Assembly: GCF_013839425.1 (NCBI RefSeq)
Contig: NZ_JACDNP010000008.1
Span: 62,001-126,000 of the forward strand
Source: Halorhabdus salina
GTDB taxonomy: Archaea; Halobacteriota; Halobacteria; Halobacteriales; Haloarculaceae
Direction of reading: 5' to 3'
Length of the DNA stretch: 64,000 bases
Shown: piece by piece, positions 20,301 through 34,201 of the stretch
How the letters are laid out: every line of letters starts with the position of its first letter
How positions within the stretch are numbered: the stretch's first letter is position 1
Program-made: the position numbers and the translations under genes
Notes under the pieces: model-generated
What the model was told of the DNA's origin: nothing
What the model saw: only the letters and a program-made list of their open reading frames with translations
The model's database searches: none

Positions 20301-20595
20301 GGCGATCGTGGACCTCCCCATCCTCGGGTTCGAAGAGCACTTCGAGACGCTGGCTTTCGAGGACTTCGAGGACAATGCGGCGATCGAGCAGGCACTGCGT
20401 GACGGCGAGGTCGACCTCGTGATCTCCCGTGATCGGGATGTTCTGGAGGTCTGTGTCGAGGAGACGATTACGTACTTCTCGACGCTGGAAAGTGCCGAGG
20501 CCGCCCTCGAAGCGATGGAGTCCGCTGACGAGCCACTGAACGTTCAGGACATCGCCTCACGCCCCAAGGCTGCCCGGAAGTGGGGTGGTGAGTGA
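17356..20595 (+). CDS. carB: Carbamoyl-phosphate synthase large subunit
   Basis: CarB makes carbamoyl phosphate from bicarbonate, ATP and ammonia delivered by CarA, for pyrimidines and arginine. The 1079-residue protein has full family length. Its two homologous halves each open with GSGPIQIGQAAEFDY and GGGPIRIGQGVEFDY. Each contains an ATP-grasp domain (LGGAGSGVID near residues 173-183, LGGRAMDVVY in the second half) and ends with the NPRxSRSSALASKATGYPI and NPRSSRTVPFISKTTGVPI segments. A TATA-like GTTTATTA at 17324-17331 lies about 27 bases before the ATG, so the mRNA is probably leaderless. carA is not adjacent, unlike in many genomes. Confidence 0.98.
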   Translation: MTDDEDRTILLIGSGPIQIGQAAEFDYSGAQACRALQEEGARVVLVNSNPATIMTDPEMADEVYLEPINTEAIAEIIRKEEPDGVIAGLGGQTGLNVTAELAEEGVLEEHDVDVMGTPLDTIYATEDRDQFRKRMQKIGEPVPTSTTIKSMDEVEEAVDEVGGLPVIMRTTYTLGGAGSGVIDDMDELKEATRKGLRLSRDDRVMITESIDGWIELEYEVMRDADDSCIIICNMENLDPMGIHTGESMVVTPSQVIPDDGHQEMRDTALKVIRELEIHGGCNIQFAWRDDGSPGGEYRVVEVNPRVSRSSALASKATGYPIARVTAKVAMGKRLHEIENEITGETTAAFEPAIDYVVTKIPRWPIDKFTDVDFELGPAMKSTGEAMSIGRTFQESLLKALRSTEYDPAVNWAEIDDEELESEYLVRPSPDRPYAMFEAFERGYSVEAVSELTEIREWYVQRYKRIADAAEAAHNGDLELAAQEGFTNHEVATLASGGAFEDTHASWLPDRLLDKRGVVEADSEVTPQTDGGTGTVSVEDVEGNAPPRSFKQVDTCAGEFEASTPYYYSAREPISGLERNEVQVDPDVESVVVVGGGPIRIGQGVEFDYCSVHAVRALEEMGIDAHVVNNNPETVSTDYDTSDGLFFEPITAEEVADVIEETGADGVMVQFGGQTSVDIGHPLETELDRRGLDCEILGTSVDAMDLAEDRDRFNRLMDELGIDQAEGGTATSEAEALELARDIGYPVLVRPSYVLGGRAMDVVYNDEDLKTYIEEAVRVSPDKPILVDDFLADAVELDVDAVADAAGEGGDVLIGGIMEHVETAGVHSGDSACMIPPRSEEIKDVMPRIREVAEEIARELDAEGLLNVQLAVRDGTVYVLEANPRSSRTVPFISKTTGVPIAKIAAKVMAGTDLDDLDIEENQPEQVSVKEVVLPFDRLPGSDPRLGPEMKSTGEVMGTAGSFGKAYQKAQQAVGKAIPLDGTAIVDLPILGFEEHFETLAFEDFEDNAAIEQALRDGEVDLVISRDRDVLEVCVEETITYFSTLESAEAALEAMESADEPLNVQDIASRPKAARKWGGE

Positions 20596-20596
20596 G

Positions 20597-21193
20597 ATGA
20601 GTAGCGACCGAGCCAAGCAAGCGCTGCGCTCGTTTCTCGGTGATGACGAGCAACTGCTGGAAACCTGGGCCGTCGACGGGGCCACGCGCGGACTGTCGCT
20701 GTCAGTTCCGACGCTTGGCGACTCGGAGACGCTCGGGCTGACCGATCAGCGACTCCTCTGGCTCGACGAGGACCTCGAAACCGTGCCACTCGAGAATATT
20801 CGCGACCTCGAACCGACGTCGATGCAGCCCTCCGGGGCTGGACTGCTAGCTGGCGTTGGCGGACTGGCTCTGGCACTGGGGTTACTGGTCACACCAATTC
20901 TCTGGGTGTTCGTCGACGTGTCGGCCCGGATGGCGCTGGCGCCGATCGTCATTGGCGCGGTGCTGTTTGTCGCCGGCCTGGTCGGGTCGCGGCTGCGGGA
21001 CGACAGCGACGATCGTCCGGCCCAACACTACCTCCAGATTAGAACGTCCGAGACGACCGTTCAGGTGTTCGCCGACGACTCGGACATCGAGGACATTCGT
21101 GAGCGAATTGCAACAGCCACTGACGAGACAGCCACTGACGAGACAGCCACTGACGAGACAGCCACTGACGAGACAGCCACTGACGAGACTTAG
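20597..21193 (+). CDS. PH-like membrane protein with ATDET repeat tail
   Basis: The 198-residue protein starts 1 base after the carB stop. Its N-terminal half reads like a PH-like domain (LGLTDQRLLWLDEDLETVPLENI), followed by a membrane hairpin (about 85-135), a soluble beta segment, and a C-terminal tail of five exact ATDET repeats ending DET. The ATG at 20597 is chosen; the GTG at 20585 overlaps carB. Function unknown. Proximity to carB suggests transcription read-through, not necessarily related function. Confidence 0.75.
   Translation: MSSDRAKQALRSFLGDDEQLLETWAVDGATRGLSLSVPTLGDSETLGLTDQRLLWLDEDLETVPLENIRDLEPTSMQPSGAGLLAGVGGLALALGLLVTPILWVFVDVSARMALAPIVIGAVLFVAGLVGSRLRDDSDDRPAQHYLQIRTSETTVQVFADDSDIEDIRERIATATDETATDETATDETATDETATDET
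21113..21187 (+). repeat. Five tandem 15-bp repeats (minisatellite) in coding sequence
   Basis: The unit ACAGCCACTGACGAG occurs five times without a single mismatch, encoding ATDET. It is in frame and forms the end of the PH-like gene; two further residues precede the stop. Exact copies imply recent or actively homogenised slippage. Confidence 0.98.
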
Positions 21194-22215: not shown

Positions 22216-22989
22216 TCACCCGGTCCTTTCAGACTGGGCTTGCTGGAACCAGGAGACTGTCACGTTTGCCAACCGCTGGTGGGCGACCGCGTATGTCGTT
22301 CCTGACGGCTGATCGCCCGGCTGGCCGGTGTAGCTACCGAACTGCGTGTGATTCACGCCTGGAATGGTTCGAACCGTCGCATTTGCCGGCAGGTTTCCCG
22401 TAGTCTGCGCGTAGGTCCCCCAGTCCAGTACGGTATCCGCTTCCCCAGCGACGCTCAACACGGCCAAATCGGTCTCCTCGATCGACTGGTCACAGTAGGA
22501 GCCGAACAGCACGACGCCAGAAACGCGGTCGGGGTTGTGTTTCGCGTAGCGACAGGCCATCGCCCCGCCCAGCGAGTGGCCGCCGACGTACCACTGGTCG
22601 ACGGCAGACTCCTGCATGACTCCTGTCGCTGCGCCCCGTTCCAGAACGGCCAGATTCAGCGGTAACTTGACGACCACGACCGTGACGTTCGCCTCGGCAA
22701 CCAGCGGCGCCACCGACGAGAGATATGCATCCGGGTGGACGCGTGCCCCGGGATAGAACACCAGTCCAGTGGCCGACGTTGCGTTTGCGGGCGTGAGGAC
22801 GTAGTCGCCGCCGACGACTTGGAGGGCGACCTGGTCGTTCTCCTGGACAGCCTGGATGCTCTCGGGACTGCCGTGAAACGGCGTTCCGAAGTACAGCAAA
22901 ACGCCGACGATCGCCACAAAGACAATCACGAATGACCAGACTGCAAGTCGCTCCCGATTTCGTCTCAGCCAGGTCCGAACGTGTCCCAT
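22216..22989 (-). CDS. Membrane-anchored alpha/beta hydrolase
   Basis: The 257-residue protein has one N-terminal membrane helix (about 17-37, AVWSFVIVFVAIVGVLLYFG) after an Arg-rich cytoplasmic end; the rest is an extracytoplasmic alpha/beta hydrolase domain. The nucleophile elbow GGHSLGGAMA is near residue 140, LSVAGEADTVLDW gives the acid, and GVNHTQFG the histidine. Haloarchaeal members resemble dienelactone-hydrolase or carboxylesterase types; the substrate is unknown. The gene is convergent with map. Confidence 0.85.
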   Translation of the reverse strand: MGHVRTWLRRNRERLAVWSFVIVFVAIVGVLLYFGTPFHGSPESIQAVQENDQVALQVVGGDYVLTPANATSATGLVFYPGARVHPDAYLSSVAPLVAEANVTVVVVKLPLNLAVLERGAATGVMQESAVDQWYVGGHSLGGAMACRYAKHNPDRVSGVVLFGSYCDQSIEETDLAVLSVAGEADTVLDWGTYAQTTGNLPANATVRTIPGVNHTQFGSYTGQPGDQPSGTTYAVAHQRLANVTVSWFQQAQSERTG

Positions 22990-23221: not shown

Positions 23222-26200
23222 TTAGTCGTCAGTCGGCGCAGCTTCTGCCGTCGGCGTGTCGTCCACGCTTGCGTGCTCAGGGCCAAAGTACTTCGTCCAG
23301 ACGACGAGCAGGCTTGGCAAGACGAGCACGCTCGCGAGGAACGCGTAGATGATCGTCAGGCCGGTAATGATGCCGAACTGCTGGAGCGGTGGCAGGATCG
23401 CGAACGCAAGCACGCCAAAGCCACCGACCGTGGTGGCGGCACTGCCCAACAGCGCACCGCCGGTGCCGGTGACAGCGGTCTCCATGGCGTCCCACATCGT
23501 CTCGGCGCGTTCGAGTTCCTGGTTGTACCGCTCACTGAGGTGGATGCTGTAGGCGACCCCGAGCCCGACGGTCAGGCTCGTGATCATCCCCGTGAGGATG
23601 TTGAACGGGATCCCAAGCAGGTACATTGTGCCCAGGATCCAGCTGACACTCATCACCACCGGGAGCAGTGTAAACGCCCCCAGTGAGGCACTTCCCTCCG
23701 TGATACGGTAGGTGAACATCAGGAAGGCGAAGACGGCGACGAGTGTAATGAGCAGACTCTCGATCACCGTCTGGAGGAGCTGATCTTGGACGATTTTGAA
23801 CAGGATCGTCTGCCCCGTCGCAGTGGCGGTGAGGCCATCGCTATCGACCGTCCCCGCGATGTCTCGCATCTGCGTCGTCACTGCACTGCCTGACGTGCCA
23901 CCTTCGACGGAGATGACCATTCGGACTGCCTCGTAGGAGCCACTGTCCGTCCGGTGGATTACGCCCGCAGCCGTTTCCGGTGCGGTTGCGAAGAGACTGT
24001 CATAGACCGCGTTGATGTTCTGGTCGGGCACGCCGTCACCGTTCGTATCGGCCTGGGTGAACGTGGCGTTGAACGTCTCGTTGTCGGCTGCGACCGATTG
24101 CATGACCGACAGCGGACTCTGGATGTCCGGATTCCCATTAGAGAGCACCTGGACGTTCGGCGCCACCGAATCGTTGCCAGCAGCCAGGCGTGCGTCGTGT
24201 AATTCGCCGATCGCATCGCTCGTGGCGACGGGTCCTTCGATCAGGATCTGCGCCTGGGAGTCCTGGCGCAAGAAGTTCTGGTTTACGTACTTGAGGTTTT
24301 CCTTCGCGGAGTAATCGCCGGGTTTGAACGGCTCCGGGAGGTTTTTCGTCCAGTCCGGTGGATCCTCAGCGAGGAAACTTTCTTGGTCGAAGCTCGTGTC
24401 GACTTGCGATCCACCGACGGCCCCGGCCGCACTGAGCAAGACGGCGACGATGATGAGGGCGTATGGTGCCTTGCGAGCCCCCGTCGCACCGATACTGAGC
24501 AGCGAACTGAATCGCCCGCCACCGGTTCCAAAGGCGGGCTTTTTGCGGTCGATCCCGCGGCCCTCGAGGAACTCGTCGATCTCCACTTTCAGTGCTGGGA
24601 TCAAGATTCCAAACACGAGCAGTGCGGCGACGATCCCGACTGAGCTCACGATGCCGAAGTCCTGAATCGGTGGCACCGGACTCGTGAGATTCGAGAGGAA
24701 GCCGATGGCTGTTGTCGCCGTCACCCAGACCAGCGCGACGCCAACCCCGGCTAGCCCGACGCCCATTGCGCCACGCACACTACTCGCGGTGTGGTCGTTG
24801 TGGCGTTCCTCACGATGACGCATGAAGGTGTGGATCGCGTAGTCGATGCTCAGCCCGATCAACAGCACCGGAACGGCGATGAACATCTGATTGAACGGAA
24901 TGTTGGCCCAGCCCATGAACCCGAATGTCATGATGAGGACGGCACCGATTCCAACGATCCCGAGGAGGATATCCAGGACGTCCCGGTAGGCGACGATCAG
25001 CGCCAGGACGACGAACAACAGCGCGAGTGGCCCGACAATGGCCAGGGAGTCGGTCATCGACCGGTTGATCTCGTCGGAGATTTTGCCAGTCCCGAAGACG
25101 ATCGCTTCGTCGTTTTCGACGGTCGCTCCCGACACGATCGATTCCATCGCGAGCTGGGAATCCATCAGTCGATCACTGACGGCACCGGCTGAGAGTTCGC
25201 CCTCGGACGTCTGGCTGATGATCCACATCGTGGCGTTGGCGTTCGGACTACCGGGTTCATACCCAGTCGGCATGAACGCGAACGCCTGCCCACTTCCGCC
25301 GTTTTCGCTCAGAATCTGGCCGAGTACAGCGTCGATTTCGGACTCGTTCATTGACGCGAGTTGCTCACGCTGGGCGGACAGCGACGCGGAACTCGCGTTG
25401 TCCAGTCGTGACTGTAGTGTCTGAAGCTCCGCACCGACTGATTTGAGGCGCTGTGCTTTCGACTCAAGACTGCTTGCCCGGTCTTGGAGTGCCGTTCGAT
25501 TGCGCTGTAGCTGCTGGTATTCCGAACGAAGGACTCCCTGCGTTCCGAGTTTGTAGGCCGCTTGGATTTGCGACTCGTTGGTTGCGGCCCGGAGCTGCTG
25601 GACCGACTGATTGAACGTCAGAAAGTGCTCGTCGTCCAGCGCCACTGTCGAGTTCGCGTCGACCTGCTCGAACAGCGTCCGTGCGTCCGACGCGGGCGTG
25701 CGCTGGACTGTCTGTAGAGCACGCTTGAGTCCGTCCGCCGTCTCGTTGAGCGTTGTGGCGCGTTGTTTGAGCTGTGCGGTCTGCTCTGCGATGGCTGTTC
25801 GCTCGCTCGCGACTGTCGCGTTCAATCGCTCGAACTCGACTGCAGTCGGTCGTAGCTGCTGGCCAATCTCCGCTTGGATGCCAGCCGTTGCGACGATATT
25901 GGGGATGCCGACAATCGCGTTTTGCTTGGCCAACGTGCGATTGACTGTCTCGTTGGCACGGAGCTCGGCCTGCATTGCCAGCATCTCCGTCAGTGACTCC
26001 TTATCGAGGACGTTCTCGTCCCGGATGATTGCCTGTACCGACGTCGTGTTCGATTCTCCTGAGGAGAAATTCGTATCTATATAATCTAACTTTTCGGACT
26101 CTGTTGTCTGGCCCTGAAACTGATCCAGAGACGATGATTGTGATACCTGTGTCGCTCCAGCGCCGACGGCGACCGTCAACACCAGAAGCACCACGATGGC

Positions 26201-26251
26201 GATCTTGCTGTGTTCGATCACCTGCTCGAACAGCCGGTCAATCAGTCCCAC
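23222..26251 (-). CDS. MMPL/RND-superfamily exporter
   Basis: The 1009-residue membrane protein has the two-fold RND plan: helix 1 (about 15-33), a long external domain with coiled-coil stretches (about 150-300), five clustered helices, then a repeat of the same arrangement (helix at about 595-615, external domain, five helices from about 835). The ALLFVVLALIVAYRDVLDILLGI and IGLSIDYAIHTFMRHREE segments, the latter an RND acidic-helix motif repeated as TVGLGVAYSIHLSERYNQE in the second half, are typical of MMPL-type lipid or hydrophobe exporters, including hopanoid/polyisoprenoid transporters. The GTG start is preceded by a GAGGAGG ribosome site. A palindromic operator lies over its promoter at 26298-26317. 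It is followed (in plus direction) by an array of regulators described below. Confidence 0.9.
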   Translation of the reverse strand: MGLIDRLFEQVIEHSKIAIVVLLVLTVAVGAGATQVSQSSSLDQFQGQTTESEKLDYIDTNFSSGESNTTSVQAIIRDENVLDKESLTEMLAMQAELRANETVNRTLAKQNAIVGIPNIVATAGIQAEIGQQLRPTAVEFERLNATVASERTAIAEQTAQLKQRATTLNETADGLKRALQTVQRTPASDARTLFEQVDANSTVALDDEHFLTFNQSVQQLRAATNESQIQAAYKLGTQGVLRSEYQQLQRNRTALQDRASSLESKAQRLKSVGAELQTLQSRLDNASSASLSAQREQLASMNESEIDAVLGQILSENGGSGQAFAFMPTGYEPGSPNANATMWIISQTSEGELSAGAVSDRLMDSQLAMESIVSGATVENDEAIVFGTGKISDEINRSMTDSLAIVGPLALLFVVLALIVAYRDVLDILLGIVGIGAVLIMTFGFMGWANIPFNQMFIAVPVLLIGLSIDYAIHTFMRHREERHNDHTASSVRGAMGVGLAGVGVALVWVTATTAIGFLSNLTSPVPPIQDFGIVSSVGIVAALLVFGILIPALKVEIDEFLEGRGIDRKKPAFGTGGGRFSSLLSIGATGARKAPYALIIVAVLLSAAGAVGGSQVDTSFDQESFLAEDPPDWTKNLPEPFKPGDYSAKENLKYVNQNFLRQDSQAQILIEGPVATSDAIGELHDARLAAGNDSVAPNVQVLSNGNPDIQSPLSVMQSVAADNETFNATFTQADTNGDGVPDQNINAVYDSLFATAPETAAGVIHRTDSGSYEAVRMVISVEGGTSGSAVTTQMRDIAGTVDSDGLTATATGQTILFKIVQDQLLQTVIESLLITLVAVFAFLMFTYRITEGSASLGAFTLLPVVMSVSWILGTMYLLGIPFNILTGMITSLTVGLGVAYSIHLSERYNQELERAETMWDAMETAVTGTGGALLGSAATTVGGFGVLAFAILPPLQQFGIITGLTIIYAFLASVLVLPSLLVVWTKYFGPEHASVDDTPTAEAAPTDD

Positions 26252-26297
26252 TGTCTGGCCTCCTCGTATTGTCTGCGGTCATTATCTGATCTCGACG

Positions 26298-26325
26298 CTG
26301 ACTAAACATTTAGTCAGTATATATG
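26298..26325 (-). promoter_or_regulatory. RND promoter with perfect palindromic TetR-type operator
   Basis: CTGACTAAACATTTAGTCAG at 26298-26317 is a 9-2-9 perfect palindrome. On the minus strand a TATA-like ATATATA (26318-26325) precedes it directly, so the palindrome covers the expected transcription start of the exporter. Repressor binding there would block initiation. A related motif occurs at 28024-28045 and 28992-29013. Confidence 0.8.
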
Positions 26326-26601
26326 TGGCGGTTTCGGAACCTGGGACGGATTCGTCTGAGTGGGCGCGAAAATACGTTCTTCTGTGGCAACGTCCACACA
26401 TAGTATCGTTCGGCAGTCACGAACAAATCAACACGTATTCGTCATATACTGGTCTTGTGGGGTCTATGTTCCTCTCATATTGTTCGTCTTGTTTGTCGAC
26501 CGACTACCGCTCAGTCTTGCGATTGTCTTTATACTCGCGCCACCAGCCAAGGCGGTCCCGGAGCCACAAGATTTACTACCTACTGAACGGTTATTCAGCA
26601 T

Positions 26602-26997
26602 ATGAGCCGCCAACAGTATGATCCGCGACCGTACATTGCCGCGTTGCTCGGTTCTCTGCTGACAGGGCTTGGGCACGTGTATCTCGGTCGCTGGAAACGC
26701 GCAGTCGGCTGGTTTGCTCTTCTCGTCTGGAGCAGCGCTGTGTTCGTCGGTCCACAGACAAGCCAGCCTCTCGCCTCGGGAGGACTGACTGGCTCACTGT
26801 CGATGGTCCCGCTGTTTTTGATCAGTATCATGAGTATTGTTGACGTGTTCCTGGTCGCTCGCCGGGATCGGCTGTCTGCAACCACCGATTCGGAACCATC
26901 GTTCGAGGCGTGTCCGGACTGCGGACGGGATCTAGATCCTGCTGTAGATTTCTGTCCGTGGTGCGGGGCTGACCGTCCTGCCGAGCGCACTGCTTGA
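26602..26997 (+). CDS. Membrane protein with C-terminal zinc ribbon
   Basis: The 131-residue protein has two membrane segments (about 11-30 and 35-52), a third at about 72-92, then a charged linker and a two-CxxC zinc ribbon CPDCGRDLD...CPWCGADRP at the C-terminus. The inverse order, with the ribbon at the end, is a known haloarchaeal arrangement. A TTTACTA box around 26570 lies about 30 bases upstream of the ATG, fitting a leaderless start. It lies just upstream of the first TetR gene and may be co-transcribed with it; the TetR frame opens within the last bases of this gene. Confidence 0.7.
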   Translation: MSRQQYDPRPYIAALLGSLLTGLGHVYLGRWKRAVGWFALLVWSSAVFVGPQTSQPLASGGLTGSLSMVPLFLISIMSIVDVFLVARRDRLSATTDSEPSFEACPDCGRDLDPAVDFCPWCGADRPAERTA

Positions 26998-27029
26998 GGA
27001 GACAGCGAGTTGGGATATGCGGCTCTGTC

Positions 27030-27644
27030 ATGACTGAGGTGAGCGGAGACGAGACGCGGGCGGCAATCAGGCGGGCTACGTTCCAGGCGCTTCGTCGCCA
27101 CGGGTACGCAAACCTGTCGATAGCACATATCGCTACCGAGCTTGGAAAGAGCAAATCGCTCCTGTATTCCTACTACGAATCCAAGGACGATGTACTTGTC
27201 GCGCTGCTCGATCACACTATTGAGGGGTATGGTAGCGACCCATCTCTCAGTGCGGATACATCGATAGAGGACACACTCAAACAGTTTCTCGAGACGCTTC
27301 TTGTCCCACCGGACGTCGACGAAGAGTCAGAACTGATCGCGGTCCTGCTCGAACTCCGTGTGCAGGCAGTCTCGGACATCGCCTACCGTGAGCGGTTCAC
27401 AATCTTAGACCAGCGCCTTCGAATCACGATTACTGATATGATCGAGCGCGGCATCGAGGCTGGCGAGTTCGCATCTGTCGACGCGACGCGAATAGCGGCC
27501 CACGTTGTTCTCATCATAAATGGAATGATGCTCCAGCAAGCAACGACTGCGGCGGACGCCTCAATGCCGACGGGACCCCGACAGATGCTCTACTCGTATC
27601 TCGACGAGACACTTGGAACGAACTACGTAGTGGACCGGCGGTAA
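27030..27644 (+). CDS. TetR/AcrR-family transcriptional regulator 1
   Basis: The 204-residue protein has an N-terminal TetR DNA-binding domain (about 8-55: RRATFQALRRHGYANLSIAHIATELGKSKSLLYSYYESKDDVLVALLDH) and a helical ligand-binding domain. The start at 27030 (MTEVSGDETR) is chosen; the longer frame from 26994 runs into the previous gene. Haloarchaeal TetR regulators normally repress nearby efflux genes and release DNA on ligand binding. The likely operator is the palindrome shared with the RND and squalene-synthase-like promoters, but which of the two TetR proteins binds it cannot be told. Confidence 0.9.
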   Translation: MTEVSGDETRAAIRRATFQALRRHGYANLSIAHIATELGKSKSLLYSYYESKDDVLVALLDHTIEGYGSDPSLSADTSIEDTLKQFLETLLVPPDVDEESELIAVLLELRVQAVSDIAYRERFTILDQRLRITITDMIERGIEAGEFASVDATRIAAHVVLIINGMMLQQATTAADASMPTGPRQMLYSYLDETLGTNYVVDRR

Positions 27645-28197
27645 TCTCACCGATGGGGCACGCTTGGGACCGCGCCTGACTCTTTCTCTCCCAACTGTGC
27701 TATCGCAGTTGTTGCAGGTGAGAGAGAAGCAGGCAGTCCACACGAGCTACTGGATGTCGTTTTCGTCGAATGGTTGCCCGGAGCGGTCCTCAGTTATGGG
27801 GGTTCTGGACCGCCGTTCCGGGACGGCCATTCGTTACGGGGGAGCGTGGTCGATGCGTGGAGCGTGGATGCGGGTTCGGGGAGGGAAACGTCCAGACACA
27901 GGGGGTGGGTCGCGACGGGCCGACAGAACCTGGTCCCACTGGAGCTGTGTTGGGCAGTTCAGATGGCTGTTGACTGTGCGATGAGCGCGAGAATCACTTG
28001 CTGGCTGTGTTTCCCTCCGTAGATTACTAACTAATTGGTCAGTATCAATCTTTTGATCGCTGTCAGGGGCCCGTGAGTCGGACTGCTATTGATTGCGAAG
28101 GGACGAAAGATCATCTAACGCCAGGTCCTCGCTGGGATCGAGTGCTTATCGAGCGGTCAAAACAATTAATTGCGTGATGTCTCTATGTATTCCTAGC
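27645..28197. promoter_or_regulatory. Long intergenic region with operator copy
   Basis: This 553-base gap has no convincing coding frame. Near its end (28024-28045) is an imperfect copy of the shared palindrome, with left arm TTACTAAC, centre TAATTG and right arm GTCAGTAT. It sits about 150 bases before the second TetR start, which is far for a simple promoter. The region between may have lost a gene or carry an untranslated leader. No known RNA could be recognised. Confidence 0.55.
28024..28045. promoter_or_regulatory. Operator-like palindrome, copy 2
   Basis: The left arm TTACTAAC and right arm GTCAGTA flank TAATTG. Read in reverse complement it differs from the 28992-29013 element at only a few positions. 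It carries the ACTAA..TG.T.AGT core of the RND operator and probably is a binding site for one of the two TetR proteins. Confidence 0.7.
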
Positions 28198-28812
28198 ATG
28201 GAAGATTCTCCGCGAACTCCTGACCCAGACGGTCACGAGGAAATCATGCGCGCAACCTATCGTGCATTGTGTGAGTACGGGTATGCGGATCTTACAATCA
28301 AACGGATCGCCAAGGAGTACGGCAAAACCACTGCGGCTATCCACTACCACTATGACACAAAAGACGATCTGCTGTTGGCGTTCCTCGATCACATACTTGG
28401 CGAATACGTGAGTGCACTCCACGAAGTACAGGCGACCGATCCCCAGGAACGTCTCGAATTACTTGTCGAGAAATTACTCATGGATCCGCGGGACCACCAC
28501 GATCTTCTCGTTGCGCTCGCTGAAATGCGTAATCAGACCCTCCACAAGGAATCATTCAGTCTCCGGTTCAAGGAGACTGATCAATATATCAGCTATCTCC
28601 TCAAAACGGTCATCGAGCAGGGCATCTCCGACGGAGTCTTTTGCGATGTTGATCCGGCACACGTCGCTCAGACTCTGCTCATGATTGTCAACGGCGCTCG
28701 TGCTCGCTCGATCTACTTAGATGAAGACAGCATCGTGGCCGATGCGAGACAAGCCGCTGACGAGTATCTCACGGCACAACTGTTCGTCGAGAGTCCCTCG
28801 CACAGTCAGTAG
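28198..28812 (+). CDS. TetR/AcrR-family transcriptional regulator 2
   Basis: The 204-residue protein has a TetR HTH (about 10-60: MRATYRALCEYGYADLTIKRIAKEYGKTTAAIHYHYDTKDDLLLAFLDH) and a divergent C-terminal ligand domain. It shares the YGYADL[ST]I and (H/Y)YxSKDDLL patterns with regulator 1, so the two are probably paralogs. The start is taken at 28198, where the conserved sequence begins; upstream in-frame codons from 28093 or 28177 are possible. It lies between two copies of the palindromic operator, which suggests autoregulation and control of the downstream synthase operon. Confidence 0.88.
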   Translation: MEDSPRTPDPDGHEEIMRATYRALCEYGYADLTIKRIAKEYGKTTAAIHYHYDTKDDLLLAFLDHILGEYVSALHEVQATDPQERLELLVEKLLMDPRDHHDLLVALAEMRNQTLHKESFSLRFKETDQYISYLLKTVIEQGISDGVFCDVDPAHVAQTLLMIVNGARARSIYLDEDSIVADARQAADEYLTAQLFVESPSHSQ

Positions 28813-28983
28813 CCTGGTTCAGTCTGCTTTGTCTCTTCGCTTGTCCGGATGTCTCGCGGTCGCGAAAGAAGCACACAGACAGTGATACGCGAACAGTTGC
28901 GTTGTTCAACGAACTGCCGGTTGGGTCACCTGGACGCTTGGCTGGTATCGTCTCTTGGGTTGCTTACAACTAGGCCGTAACAG

Positions 28984-29013
28984 TTATATACTTACTAACC
29001 AATTAGTTAGTAA
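28984..29013 (+). promoter_or_regulatory. Promoter with 8+8 palindromic operator for the synthase operon
   Basis: A TATA-like TTATATA at 28984-28990 is followed at once by arms TTACTAAC (28992-28999) and GTTAGTAA (29006-29013) around CAATTA. The operator thus covers the expected transcription start, as at the RND promoter. The downstream ATG at 29039 has a GGAGA site upstream. Confidence 0.75.
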
Positions 29014-29038
29014 TTGCCATGTGGAGAATTCACCTCAT

Positions 29039-29287
29039 ATGAGCCTGTCACGAGACAGCGTTCTGAATTCGGTCCAGGCTTGGAATCAGGATGGGCGTCT
29101 GTACGTCGCTGTCGGCCTGACTGCGGCCATCCTGTCACTCGTGTTTATTCCATTGTTAGGCCTTGCCGCCGTGTATTGCGGGTACAAACTGTACGCTACC
29201 CAGGAACGAACGATACTAGCCTTGCTACTGTCTGGCTTCGGCGGCTTTGGGTTCCTGTGGTGGATCTTTTACCTCAGTACTCTGTGA
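29039..29287 (+). CDS. Small membrane protein upstream of synthase
   Basis: The 82-residue protein has two predicted membrane segments (about 20-40, 55-78) and a short polar N-terminus. The ATG at 29039 (MSLSRDSVLNSV) has GGAGA ahead of it; the longer frame from 28955 would start before the promoter. It ends 10 bases before the squalene/phytoene-synthase-like gene, so they are probably one transcript. No family is recognised; it could be an accessory subunit or a partner of the exporter, but that is a guess. Confidence 0.65.
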   Translation: MSLSRDSVLNSVQAWNQDGRLYVAVGLTAAILSLVFIPLLGLAAVYCGYKLYATQERTILALLLSGFGGFGFLWWIFYLSTL

Positions 29288-29297
29288 ATAACCTCCC

Positions 29298-30350
29298 ATG
29301 GTAGCTGTTTCTTCTCCCGAGCCCGACATCTCTTGGTGTTACGACGCGGTACAGGGTGTTTCCCGAACCTTTGCTCTAACTGTCGACGCCCTGTCAGAGC
29401 CGATGTCGTCACAGATCTGCGTGGGGTATCTTCTGTGTCGCGTGGCCGATACTGTCGAAGACGCCAATCACATCCCGCCTGCTACGCAGGCGTCCCTCCT
29501 TCGAACGTTCGGTGCTGCGCTTGATCCGGCCAGTGACGAAACGATACTGGCGTTCCGGGACGCCGTTGACGACTGGCTACCCGCATCAGACAATCGCAGC
29601 CCCGATTGGACCGTCGTTGCTCGCTCTCCGACAATTTGGGCGACGTTCACTGCTCAGCCAGCATCTGTCCAGCGAGCCATCGTTCCACCAGTCCGGGAAA
29701 TGGTCGACGGGATGGTGCTGTTCTTGGAACGCTACGCAGCTTCCGGCGGACTGCGTCTCGGCGATCGTGCTGAACTTGAGGAGTATTGCTACTACGCCGC
29801 TGGGACCGTCGGCGAGCTCATCACTAACTTACTGACGCGGGACGAAATCGGACAGGCCCGTGCCCGAACGTTGGACGATACCGCCACCGAGTTCGGACTC
29901 CTTTTACAGCTAGTGAACGTCGCGAAAGACGTCTACGACGATTATACGGAAGAAAACAACGTCTATTTGCCCGCTGAGTGGCTCGCCGCCGAGGGGATCA
30001 AGCAAGATGCGATTCTCCAGGCGACCAACCGAAACGCAGTTGCGCAGGTCGTCGAACGGACTGCTGCCTACGCGTCGACATTTCTCGATGATGCCTTGGA
30101 GTACATCGATGCAATGCCACTCACTCACGGTAATACGATCGCCGCGTGGTCGGTGCCCTATCTGTTGAGCGTAGGGACAATTCGAGAGTTGCGTGACCGC
30201 CCAGAAGATGCACTTACCGAAGGCGGAGTGAAAATTTCCCGTCAGGAAGTGTTTGCGATCATGGAAGCAGCAAACGGAACTGGGCGCGATTCGATCGCAG
30301 ATCTTCGCCAAACTATCGCCGAAACGCCGTACCATCTCGCTATCGACTAA
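29298..30350 (+). CDS. Squalene/phytoene-synthase-family enzyme (FPP farnesyltransferase type)
   Basis: The enzyme condenses two isoprenyl diphosphates head-to-head, giving squalene or phytoene. The 350-residue protein has both metal-binding aspartate-rich motifs: LLCRVADTVED (Asp51, Asp55) and NVAKDVYDDYTEENNVYLP (Asp211, Asp214, Asp215), as in squalene synthases. The N-terminus (PDISWCYDAVQGVSRTFALTVDAL) is that of haloarchaeal farnesyl-diphosphate farnesyltransferases. Product (squalene, dehydrosqualene or phytoene) cannot be told from sequence. It sits in a TetR-controlled operon with a small membrane protein; the shared operator links it to the MMPL exporter. Confidence 0.9.
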   Translation: MVAVSSPEPDISWCYDAVQGVSRTFALTVDALSEPMSSQICVGYLLCRVADTVEDANHIPPATQASLLRTFGAALDPASDETILAFRDAVDDWLPASDNRSPDWTVVARSPTIWATFTAQPASVQRAIVPPVREMVDGMVLFLERYAASGGLRLGDRAELEEYCYYAAGTVGELITNLLTRDEIGQARARTLDDTATEFGLLLQLVNVAKDVYDDYTEENNVYLPAEWLAAEGIKQDAILQATNRNAVAQVVERTAAYASTFLDDALEYIDAMPLTHGNTIAAWSVPYLLSVGTIRELRDRPEDALTEGGVKISRQEVFAIMEAANGTGRDSIADLRQTIAETPYHLAID

Positions 30351-32349: not shown

Positions 32350-32657
32350 GTTGTCGCCGGATACGGAACAAAGGTTTAATTAGCTGTTGCTTGTGCCAAT
32401 CAACCCCGGAAGGCGGTGTATCAAAAACTGTCATTTGTACTATCGTCTATAGCAACTACGACAGTTGACGATATTCTCCGGTCTGATCGCACTGGCAGTC
32501 TTCACGGTGTCAATCCACAGGATGACTACTCGTGCTCCGCGAATCTAGCATCGAAACAGCTGTCGATTACGCTGTCGGTACCGGGATTTTCGACACGCGT
32601 CGGACTCAAAATATATCAACGACTGGAACGACGGTCCTGACGGAGGATCACACACAT
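32350..32657. promoter_or_regulatory. Divergent intergenic with thiolase promoter
   Basis: A TATA-like AAAATATATCA at 32608-32618 lies about 40 bases before the thiolase ATG, fitting a short leader. A second AT-rich stretch near 32375 may serve the ferredoxin on the minus strand. No coding frame is supported. Confidence 0.55.
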
Positions 32658-33821
32658 ATGTCAACACCGATAGCTGGGGTAGGGATGACGAAGTTTGGCG
32701 AGATGCCTGACCGAACAGGACGAGATCTATTCGCCGACGCAGGTGAGAGCGCGATCAAGGACGCCGGGATCGATCGCGAGGAGATCGATGCCCTCTACGT
32801 GGGCAACTTCATGGGGGAACTCTCGGAACGCCAGGGCCACATGGGCCCACTGATGGCCAAGATGCTCGGCCTGGACGTCCCCGCGACGCGCGTCGAAAGC
32901 GCTTGTGCCTCGGGCGGAATGGCCGTCCGACAGGGGATCCACGCCATCCGCGCTGGATCGGCCGATGTCGTCCTCGTCGGCGGCGTCGAACGAATGCACA
33001 ACATGGGCACGACCGGTGCGACCGGCGGCCTCTCTGTCGCCGCCGACGACCTTTGGGAGATCAAACACGGGATCACCTTCCCGGGCGCCTATGCCCTGAT
33101 GGCCCAACGGTACTTCGCCACCCACGGCGGCGACCGCGAGGACCTCGCCGAAGTCGCGGTAAAGAACCACGCCAACGCGGCAAACAACCCACTCGCCCAG
33201 TATCAGAGTGAAATCACCGTCGAGAAAGTGCTGGACGCCTTCCCGGTCGCCGACCCGCTGGGGCTGTTCGACGCCAGTCCGATCACCGACGGGGCCGCGG
33301 CAGCGCTGCTCGTTAGTGAGGACTACGCCGCCGAGCACGATCTGGACGCCGCCGTTTCGATTGCCGGGACTGGACAGGGAACCGACGACCTCGCCTTACA
33401 GCACCGTGACTCGTTGACCTGGACGCCCGCAACGGCCGACGCCGCCGAAGAGGCATACACCGACGCCGGGATCGACGCCGAGGACGTCGACTTCCTCGAA
33501 GTCCACGACTGCTTCACGATCGCCGAAGTCCTCGCCCTGGAGGGACTCGGTCTGTACGACCCTGGCGAGGCGATCACCGCCGCCAGGGAGGGCGAGACGA
33601 CTGCCGACGGCGAGCTACCCGTCAATCTCTCGGGCGGCCTGAAAGCAAAGGGCCATCCAGTCGGAGCGACTGGCGTCGCCCAGATCACCGAGATGACGAA
33701 GCTCTTCCGCGGCGATCACGTCAACAGCGACGCCGTCGAGAATGCCGAGGTCGGCCTGACGCACAACGCCGGTGGGACAGTCGCGTCTGCTGTGGTTCAC
33801 GTCCTGGAGGTGGAAGCATGA
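32658..33821 (+). CDS. Thiolase-family acyltransferase (SCP2/acetyl-CoA acetyltransferase type)
   Basis: The 387-residue protein has the nucleophile Cys83 in ESACASGGMAVRQG, the catalytic HDCFTIAE, GHPVGATGVAQI, and THNAGGTVASAVVHVLE at the end. These are features of the SCP2-like thiolases, which act on acyl-CoAs in fatty-acid or isoprenoid metabolism. The ATG at 32658 (MSTPIAGVGMTKFGEMP) begins the conserved domain. Its stop overlaps the DUF35 start by four bases. Such a thiolase with a DUF35 partner is known to form a channeling complex, in some archaea with HMG-CoA synthase; here that synthase is not adjacent. Confidence 0.9.
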   Translation: MSTPIAGVGMTKFGEMPDRTGRDLFADAGESAIKDAGIDREEIDALYVGNFMGELSERQGHMGPLMAKMLGLDVPATRVESACASGGMAVRQGIHAIRAGSADVVLVGGVERMHNMGTTGATGGLSVAADDLWEIKHGITFPGAYALMAQRYFATHGGDREDLAEVAVKNHANAANNPLAQYQSEITVEKVLDAFPVADPLGLFDASPITDGAAAALLVSEDYAAEHDLDAAVSIAGTGQGTDDLALQHRDSLTWTPATADAAEEAYTDAGIDAEDVDFLEVHDCFTIAEVLALEGLGLYDPGEAITAAREGETTADGELPVNLSGGLKAKGHPVGATGVAQITEMTKLFRGDHVNSDAVENAEVGLTHNAGGTVASAVVHVLEVEA

Positions 33822-34201
33822 GCGAGGAAGTCAGAGACGATGGCTACGACGACTTCATGGACGCTCTGGAGGAGGGCGACCCGTACTACATCGAGTGTGC
33901 CAACGGCCACGCCTCCCTCCCGCCCCGTAGACTCTGTCCCGAGTGTGCCAGTGACGATCTCGAGGAGGCAGCGCTCCCGGAAACTGGCGAACTCCTGACC
34001 TACAACGTCACGCACGTCCCGACGCCGGCCTTCGCGGACGACGTGCCGTTCGTGCTCGGGATCGCCGAGTTTGGGGATGTGCGGCTGACCGGCCAGATTC
34101 GGGCCGAAAGCGAAGACGTCGAGGTCGGTGAGAGTGTCTCGATCGGCACCGACGTCAGCGAGACGAACGGCGAGCGATACATCGCCTTCGACCTCGCGTA
34201 A
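33818..34201 (+). CDS. DUF35 OB-fold/zinc-ribbon partner of thiolase
   Basis: The 127-residue protein has a C-terminal OB-like region (LTYNVTHVPTPAFADDVPFVLGIAEFGDVRLTGQI) and a C4 zinc ribbon: Cys in YIECANGHASLPPRRLCPECASD, near residues 26-48. DUF35 proteins bind acyl-CoA and bridge thiolase to the next enzyme. It overlaps the thiolase stop (ATGA), so they are translationally coupled. Confidence 0.9.
   Translation: MSEEVRDDGYDDFMDALEEGDPYYIECANGHASLPPRRLCPECASDDLEEAALPETGELLTYNVTHVPTPAFADDVPFVLGIAEFGDVRLTGQIRAESEDVEVGESVSIGTDVSETNGERYIAFDLA

Follow-up and report, generated by a model that had tools for sequence, protein, structure and literature searches.

A putative TetR regulon joining an MMPL-type exporter with an accessory squalene-synthase-family enzyme in Halorhabdus salina

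A 64,000-nucleotide stretch of the Halorhabdus salina genome (contig NZ_JACDNP010000008.1, positions 62,001 to 126,000; hereafter the window) contains, at 23222-30350, a locus in which near-identical palindromic operators lie at the promoters of both an MMPL-type exporter and a two-gene unit encoding a small membrane protein, SMP, and an accessory member of the squalene synthase family, SQS2, with the genes of two TetR regulators between them. The wiring of the exporter and SMP-SQS2 into one regulon appears well supported by the position and conservation of the operators, and with middling confidence we read the locus as a TetR-controlled response to hydrophobic or amphiphilic compounds, which would couple efflux with squalene-based membrane remodelling. 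The region was read on both strands, and genome-wide questions were answered by searching the 2.86-Mb haloarchaeal genome (25 contigs).

The exporter gene (1009 aa; 23222-26251, minus strand) is followed on the plus strand by ZNR, TetR1, TetR2, SMP, and SQS2, all of which are open reading frames without interruption. Both regulators carry TetR_N and TetR_C_6 domains (PF00440 and PF13977 above cut-off), TetR2 (28198-28812) being the core regulator of the system. SMP (29039-29287) is a hydrophobic, predicted helical membrane protein of 82 aa that matches no Pfam family, and the gene for SQS2 (350 aa; 29298-30350) starts 10 nt past its end, the two forming a bicistron. An earlier note on this DNA had delimited and described these genes correctly, except that ZNR was missing from its list.

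Three near-identical palindromes of the form ACTNACNANNTNGTNAGT are found in the locus. O1 (ACTAAACATTTAGTCAGT, 26301-26318) lies in the exporter promoter, directly downstream of the TATA-like sequence ATATATAC (~26317-26325, read on the minus strand); O2 (ACTAACTAATTGGTCAGT, 28026-28043) is located ~155 nt upstream of TetR2; and O3 (ACTAACCAATTAGTTAGT, 28994-29011) lies in the promoter of SMP-SQS2, directly downstream of the TATA-like box TTATATAC (28984-28991). The same order of TATA box and operator precedes SMP in seven other loci (L034, L035, L177, L187, L193, L279, and L281), and an archaeal promoter would be expected to be shut off by a repressor sitting just past its TATA box. When the whole genome was searched for ACTNACNANNTNGTNAGT with at most one mismatch, four places were recovered, namely O1, O2, O3, and one unrelated place; within their own genome, the operators are essentially confined to this locus. 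The shared operators on which the earlier note had built its proposal are thus borne out, at the exporter and SMP-SQS2 promoters alike. Across ~60 related loci, which are partly non-independent yet come from several families, the operator was found 136-154 nt upstream of TetR2 orthologues in 18 of 36 cases and 16-30 nt upstream of SMP genes in 12 of 28, compared with 47 of 4000 length-matched random stretches, which argues against a chance origin of these sites.

The layout is retained in a congener (genome G224), which encodes the exporter (91% identity), TetR2 (91%), SMP (77%), SQS2 (84%), and the alpha/beta hydrolase that adjoins the exporter past its 3′ side (22216-22989 in the window), with operators, including O1, at the corresponding positions. 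Loss of the neighbourhood from all relatives, which the earlier note had named as grounds for abandoning its proposal, is therefore not what is observed. The dN/dS values between the two species are 0.10-0.22 for the exporter, TetR2, SMP, and SQS2, and this unit is, judging from the sequences, under purifying selection. Relatives of TetR2 with 50-64% identity are encoded in ~100 of 394 Halobacteria genomes, and 13 of the 18 fetched loci from outside this genus pair place the TetR2 orthologue beside a pump of the multidrug type, MATE; a published study connects the MATE pumps of Halorubrum amylolyticum with antibiotic efflux (PMC11721430). In one genome (L241), TetR2, MATE, and MMPL genes are found side by side. 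Most TetR2 orthologues stand in loci that have no SQS.

Comparison of these loci shows that the parts of the system are combined in different ways. SMP-SQS2 occurs with TetR2 and a MATE gene nearby in Halorubrum sp. GN11 and Halorubrum distributum, a TetR2-MATE-SQS arrangement devoid of SMP is found in Salinarchaeum laminariae and HArc-gm2, and a 258-kb plasmid of Haloarcula pelagica bears the SMP-SQS2 pair. In two further families, f7 and f12, a different TetR gene stands beside SMP and an SQS of another clade (SMP-TetR-SQS class); the operator is present at the SMP promoter in both f7 loci and one f12 locus, and no MMPL or MATE exporter was seen near the genes of this class. Pairing of MMPL with SQS was seen only in the genus of the window species (2 genomes). 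On the evidence of these neighbourhoods, the exporter and the enzyme belong to one regulon and can each be exchanged within it. Since the wiring recurs in distant relatives with a different pump or with none, it suggests a cell that alters its membrane while pumping, rather than one that exports the product of the enzyme.

The exporter itself contains two copies of the MMPL domain (PF03176, E=9.7e-40; 136.9 bits vs a threshold of 20.5) and is thus an MMPL/RND exporter. Its best NCBIfam model is HAE3 (TIGR00921), although the score of 231.1 against 351.9 bits leaves it outside the curated HAE3 subfamily, and it falls well below the cut-offs for the hopanoid transporter HpnN (113.4 vs 751.85 bits for TIGR03480 and 54.2 vs 1100 bits for NF052374). 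These results bear on the central idea of the earlier note, a synthesis-and-export module in which SQS2 makes a C30 or C40 isoprenoid and the exporter delivers it to the outer leaflet or expels it. The operators common to the exporter and SMP-SQS2, the retention of the pairing in the congener, and the existence of hopanoid and lipid transporters among MMPL relatives are all in keeping with that idea. However, if it held, exporter and SQS should travel together, and they do not: SQS is absent from all 19 fetched neighbourhoods of orthologous MMPL exporters (60-83% identity), which are widespread and adjoin other TetR genes, and elsewhere TetR-linked SQS genes are accompanied by MATE (Halorubrum, Salinarchaeum) or by no such exporter. 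Moreover, squalene is reported to reside in the membrane midplane by itself (PMC10821996). We therefore rejected product export as the principal explanation and regard it as unlikely; regulated synthesis survives from the earlier proposal, on the strength of the operators, the conserved neighbourhood, and a synthase distinct from the housekeeping one, whereas export by this particular exporter is not supported and keeps only a small probability for this genus, in which the pairing is conserved. In the AlphaFold model of the exporter, which has a mean pLDDT of 58, residues ~116-314 of the first extracytoplasmic loop include a predicted long helical hairpin (116-184 and 242-286; pLDDT ~90), the rest of the model being poor; the hairpin is possibly a coiled coil reaching toward the S-layer.

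SQS2 belongs to the squalene/phytoene synthase family (SQS_PSY, PF00494, E=2.3e-52; 178.8 vs 26 bits), with two Asp-rich motifs and intact catalytic residues (DTVED at 51-55, Y166, D211, and D215). Squalene is its likely product, given that the squalene synthase equivalog TIGR01559 is the best of six NCBIfam models, albeit below its cut-off (95.7 vs 286.75 bits). The genome encodes three members of the family: CrtB (contig 12, L001), an SQS on contig 25 (L002/L258) flanked by genes for a phosphate permease and a methyltransferase, and SQS2, which is 48% identical to the contig-25 enzyme. In the maximum-likelihood tree, SQS2 and the other TetR2-linked copies fall into a 14-member group (100/98 support), which also includes six copies without TetR2 linkage, and the contig-25 SQS branches elsewhere. 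A housekeeping role for SQS2 was rejected given this placement and the presence of CrtB and another squalene synthase in the genome; the possibility, admitted in the earlier note, that SQS2 is the sole housekeeping squalene or phytoene synthase does not apply. SQS2 is a second enzyme of the squalene-synthase type, and apparently an inducible one.

From these components we infer the ligand, product, and physiology of the regulon as follows. TetR2 would repress both promoters until it has bound a hydrophobic or amphiphilic ligand, whereupon the MMPL pump would expel the compound and SQS2 would join two molecules of farnesyl diphosphate into squalene, which would fill the membrane midplane and lower its permeability. 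SMP, translated from the same message, may anchor SQS2 at the membrane or place its product. Squalene has been located in the midplane of archaeal-type membranes (PMC10821996, PMC6770870), so that it would have no obvious need of a flippase, and in archaeal-type vesicles 1 mol% squalene lowered proton permeability (PMC10821996).

Several observations weigh against this membrane-remodelling scheme. The operators indicate coordinate control and not which TetR binds them, and recognition of O1-O3 by TetR2 is deduced only from their conservation and position; similarly, squalene is preferred over another C30/C40 product only from family membership and motifs. SQS genes of the same clade stand without TetR2 or an operator in L122, L125, L127, L116, L123, and L251. 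In Salinarchaeum and the HArc-gm2-like genome G192, the TetR-linked SQS is the sole SQS and may serve as the housekeeping enzyme as well.

Another alternative, to which we assign the same low likelihood as to product export, is that SQS2 drains farnesyl diphosphate made in excess, or contributes to the general squalene supply, when the envelope is under stress, with the exporter sharing nothing except the regulator. The free mixing of parts among loci is compatible with such a role, as is the situation in other congeners: G075, G120, and G144 each have a single SQS, which belongs to the SQS2 clade and is encoded elsewhere, next to cysteine/methionine genes, and no SQS of the contig-25 type was found in these three genomes, so that the two types seem to replace each other, the SQS2-clade enzyme apparently taking over from the housekeeping one. 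The tight, conserved SMP-SQS pairing, however, suggests a function directed at the membrane.

SMP homologues are encoded in 60 of 394 genomes, and ~9 SMP-bearing genomes have an SQS within 3 kb (in one of them, L187, a remnant), compared with ~0.2 expected from random placement, a rough estimate to be read with the shared ancestry of some SMP loci in mind. A tight pair with a gap of ~8-10 nt is found in the genus of the window species, in Halorubrum, and in Haloarcula pelagica. Because SMP is encoded 10 nt ahead of SQS2, an enzyme lacking an evident membrane anchor, it is the most obvious choice of a membrane partner and may keep SQS2, which would otherwise be soluble, membrane-bound or assist in positioning its product. 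The structure model of SMP consists of confident helices and suggests no function; SMP is the only part of the system outside known families, and its own family is unstudied. More tentatively than the regulon as a whole, SMP-SQS2 can be viewed as a transferable, inducible membrane-sealing cassette, in which a TetR protein would sense a hydrophobic toxicant, squalene would rise, and whatever efflux pump is present would act alongside; SMP would then be a new membrane partner of squalene synthase. Two side observations concern this pair. In L187 (8862-9261), an intact SMP gene is followed by a 39-residue remnant of SQS2, a decayed pair, and genes for MscS-type mechanosensitive channels are located beside or near SMP-SQS2 in L034, L035, L036, and L299 (the Haloarcula pelagica plasmid), with the MscS-type gene in Halorubrum divergent from SMP-SQS2 across the operator.

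Somewhat less probable than either of the preceding alternatives is that SQS2 provides a precursor that other enzymes, such as the SDR oxidoreductases of the f7 and f12 loci, would turn into a secreted or signalling terpenoid, with efflux as self-protection. TetR, exporter, and terpene enzyme together would resemble a small biosynthetic cluster, and SDR genes do adjoin SQS in the f7/f12-type loci L279, L280, and L295, but in loci of the TetR2 type, including the window and G224, SQS2 is not accompanied by any conserved tailoring enzyme. Finally, TetR-exporter pairs are common in Halobacteria, and an ordinary TetR-efflux locus could lie beside an unrelated synthase by chance, which the operators at both promoters, the conserved synteny, and the recurrence of SMP-SQS-TetR in several families make highly improbable.

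With respect to known systems, the locus resembles TetR-repressed multidrug efflux loci, in which a TetR/AcrR-type regulator stands beside an RND or MATE pump and a palindromic operator overlies the pump promoter, except that here an enzyme of the squalene synthase family and a small membrane protein are under the same operators as well. As in the hopanoid module (HpnN and HpnC/HpnD), a transporter of the RND family is encoded together with a member of a squalene-forming enzyme family, but the cut-offs for HpnC and HpnD, as for HpnN, are not reached, no cyclase was seen in the locus, and the transporter is not tied to the enzyme in relatives. SQS2 has the family membership and catalytic motifs of the housekeeping haloarchaeal squalene synthase, from which it differs in its linkage to TetR and operators, its grouping with TetR2-linked copies, and its coexistence with L002/L258. 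In solvent-tolerant bacteria, a pump and a change in membrane lipids act as a single stress response; here, by contrast, the lipid would probably be squalene, and both arms are apparently under one local regulator. Thus, TetR-controlled efflux loci are already known, as are the families of every part except SMP, and what appears to be new is the combination, a TetR operator set common to an efflux pump, an accessory squalene synthase, and a small membrane partner. In line with the earlier note, whose author knew of no such layout, no description of a haloarchaeal TetR-SQS-exporter system was found in the open-access literature searched, most subscription papers being outside our reach.

The system bears on what squalene does in archaeal membranes, where apolar polyisoprenoids have been reviewed as possible membrane regulators, a role for which there is little direct evidence (PMC6770870). 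An SQS gene that is distinct from the housekeeping copy and answers to a dedicated repressor would offer a clean genetic handle on squalene: deletion or induction of SMP-SQS2 should shift squalene while leaving carotenoids and core lipids untouched. The system would also tie antimicrobial efflux to membrane composition in archaea, and it draws attention to SMP, a family of small proteins that probably act together with squalene synthase.

The remaining genes of the locus, ZNR and TetR1 (27030-27644, plus strand), would constitute a separable unit of the same kind as the TetR2 regulon. ZNR (26602-26997, plus strand) is a 131-aa membrane protein with a C-terminal zinc ribbon (DUF7575, PF24460, E=6e-10); it is often encoded beside TetR2-like regulators, and its homologues often adjoin TetR or exporter genes; in some of them, 2-6 nt separate an operator from the start. 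A degenerate fourth operator-like site, ACTGAACGGTTATTCAGC (26582-26599), weaker than O1-O3, precedes ZNR in the window and aligns with ACTGAACAGTTAGTTAGT at L177:9435, where the genes downstream of the site are gone. ZNR-TetR1 is absent from the locus in G224, in which the site 5′ of ZNR is better preserved and persists without the gene, suggesting that the congener lost this unit. Two features in the vicinity complete the picture of the region: a gene for a thiolase-domain protein with an overlapping small gene (32532-34201), located 2 kb past SQS2 and not adjoining it in G224, and an open reading frame at 20585-21193 whose product has a repeated C-terminal ATDET motif, encoded by tandem 15-bp repeats at 21119-21181.

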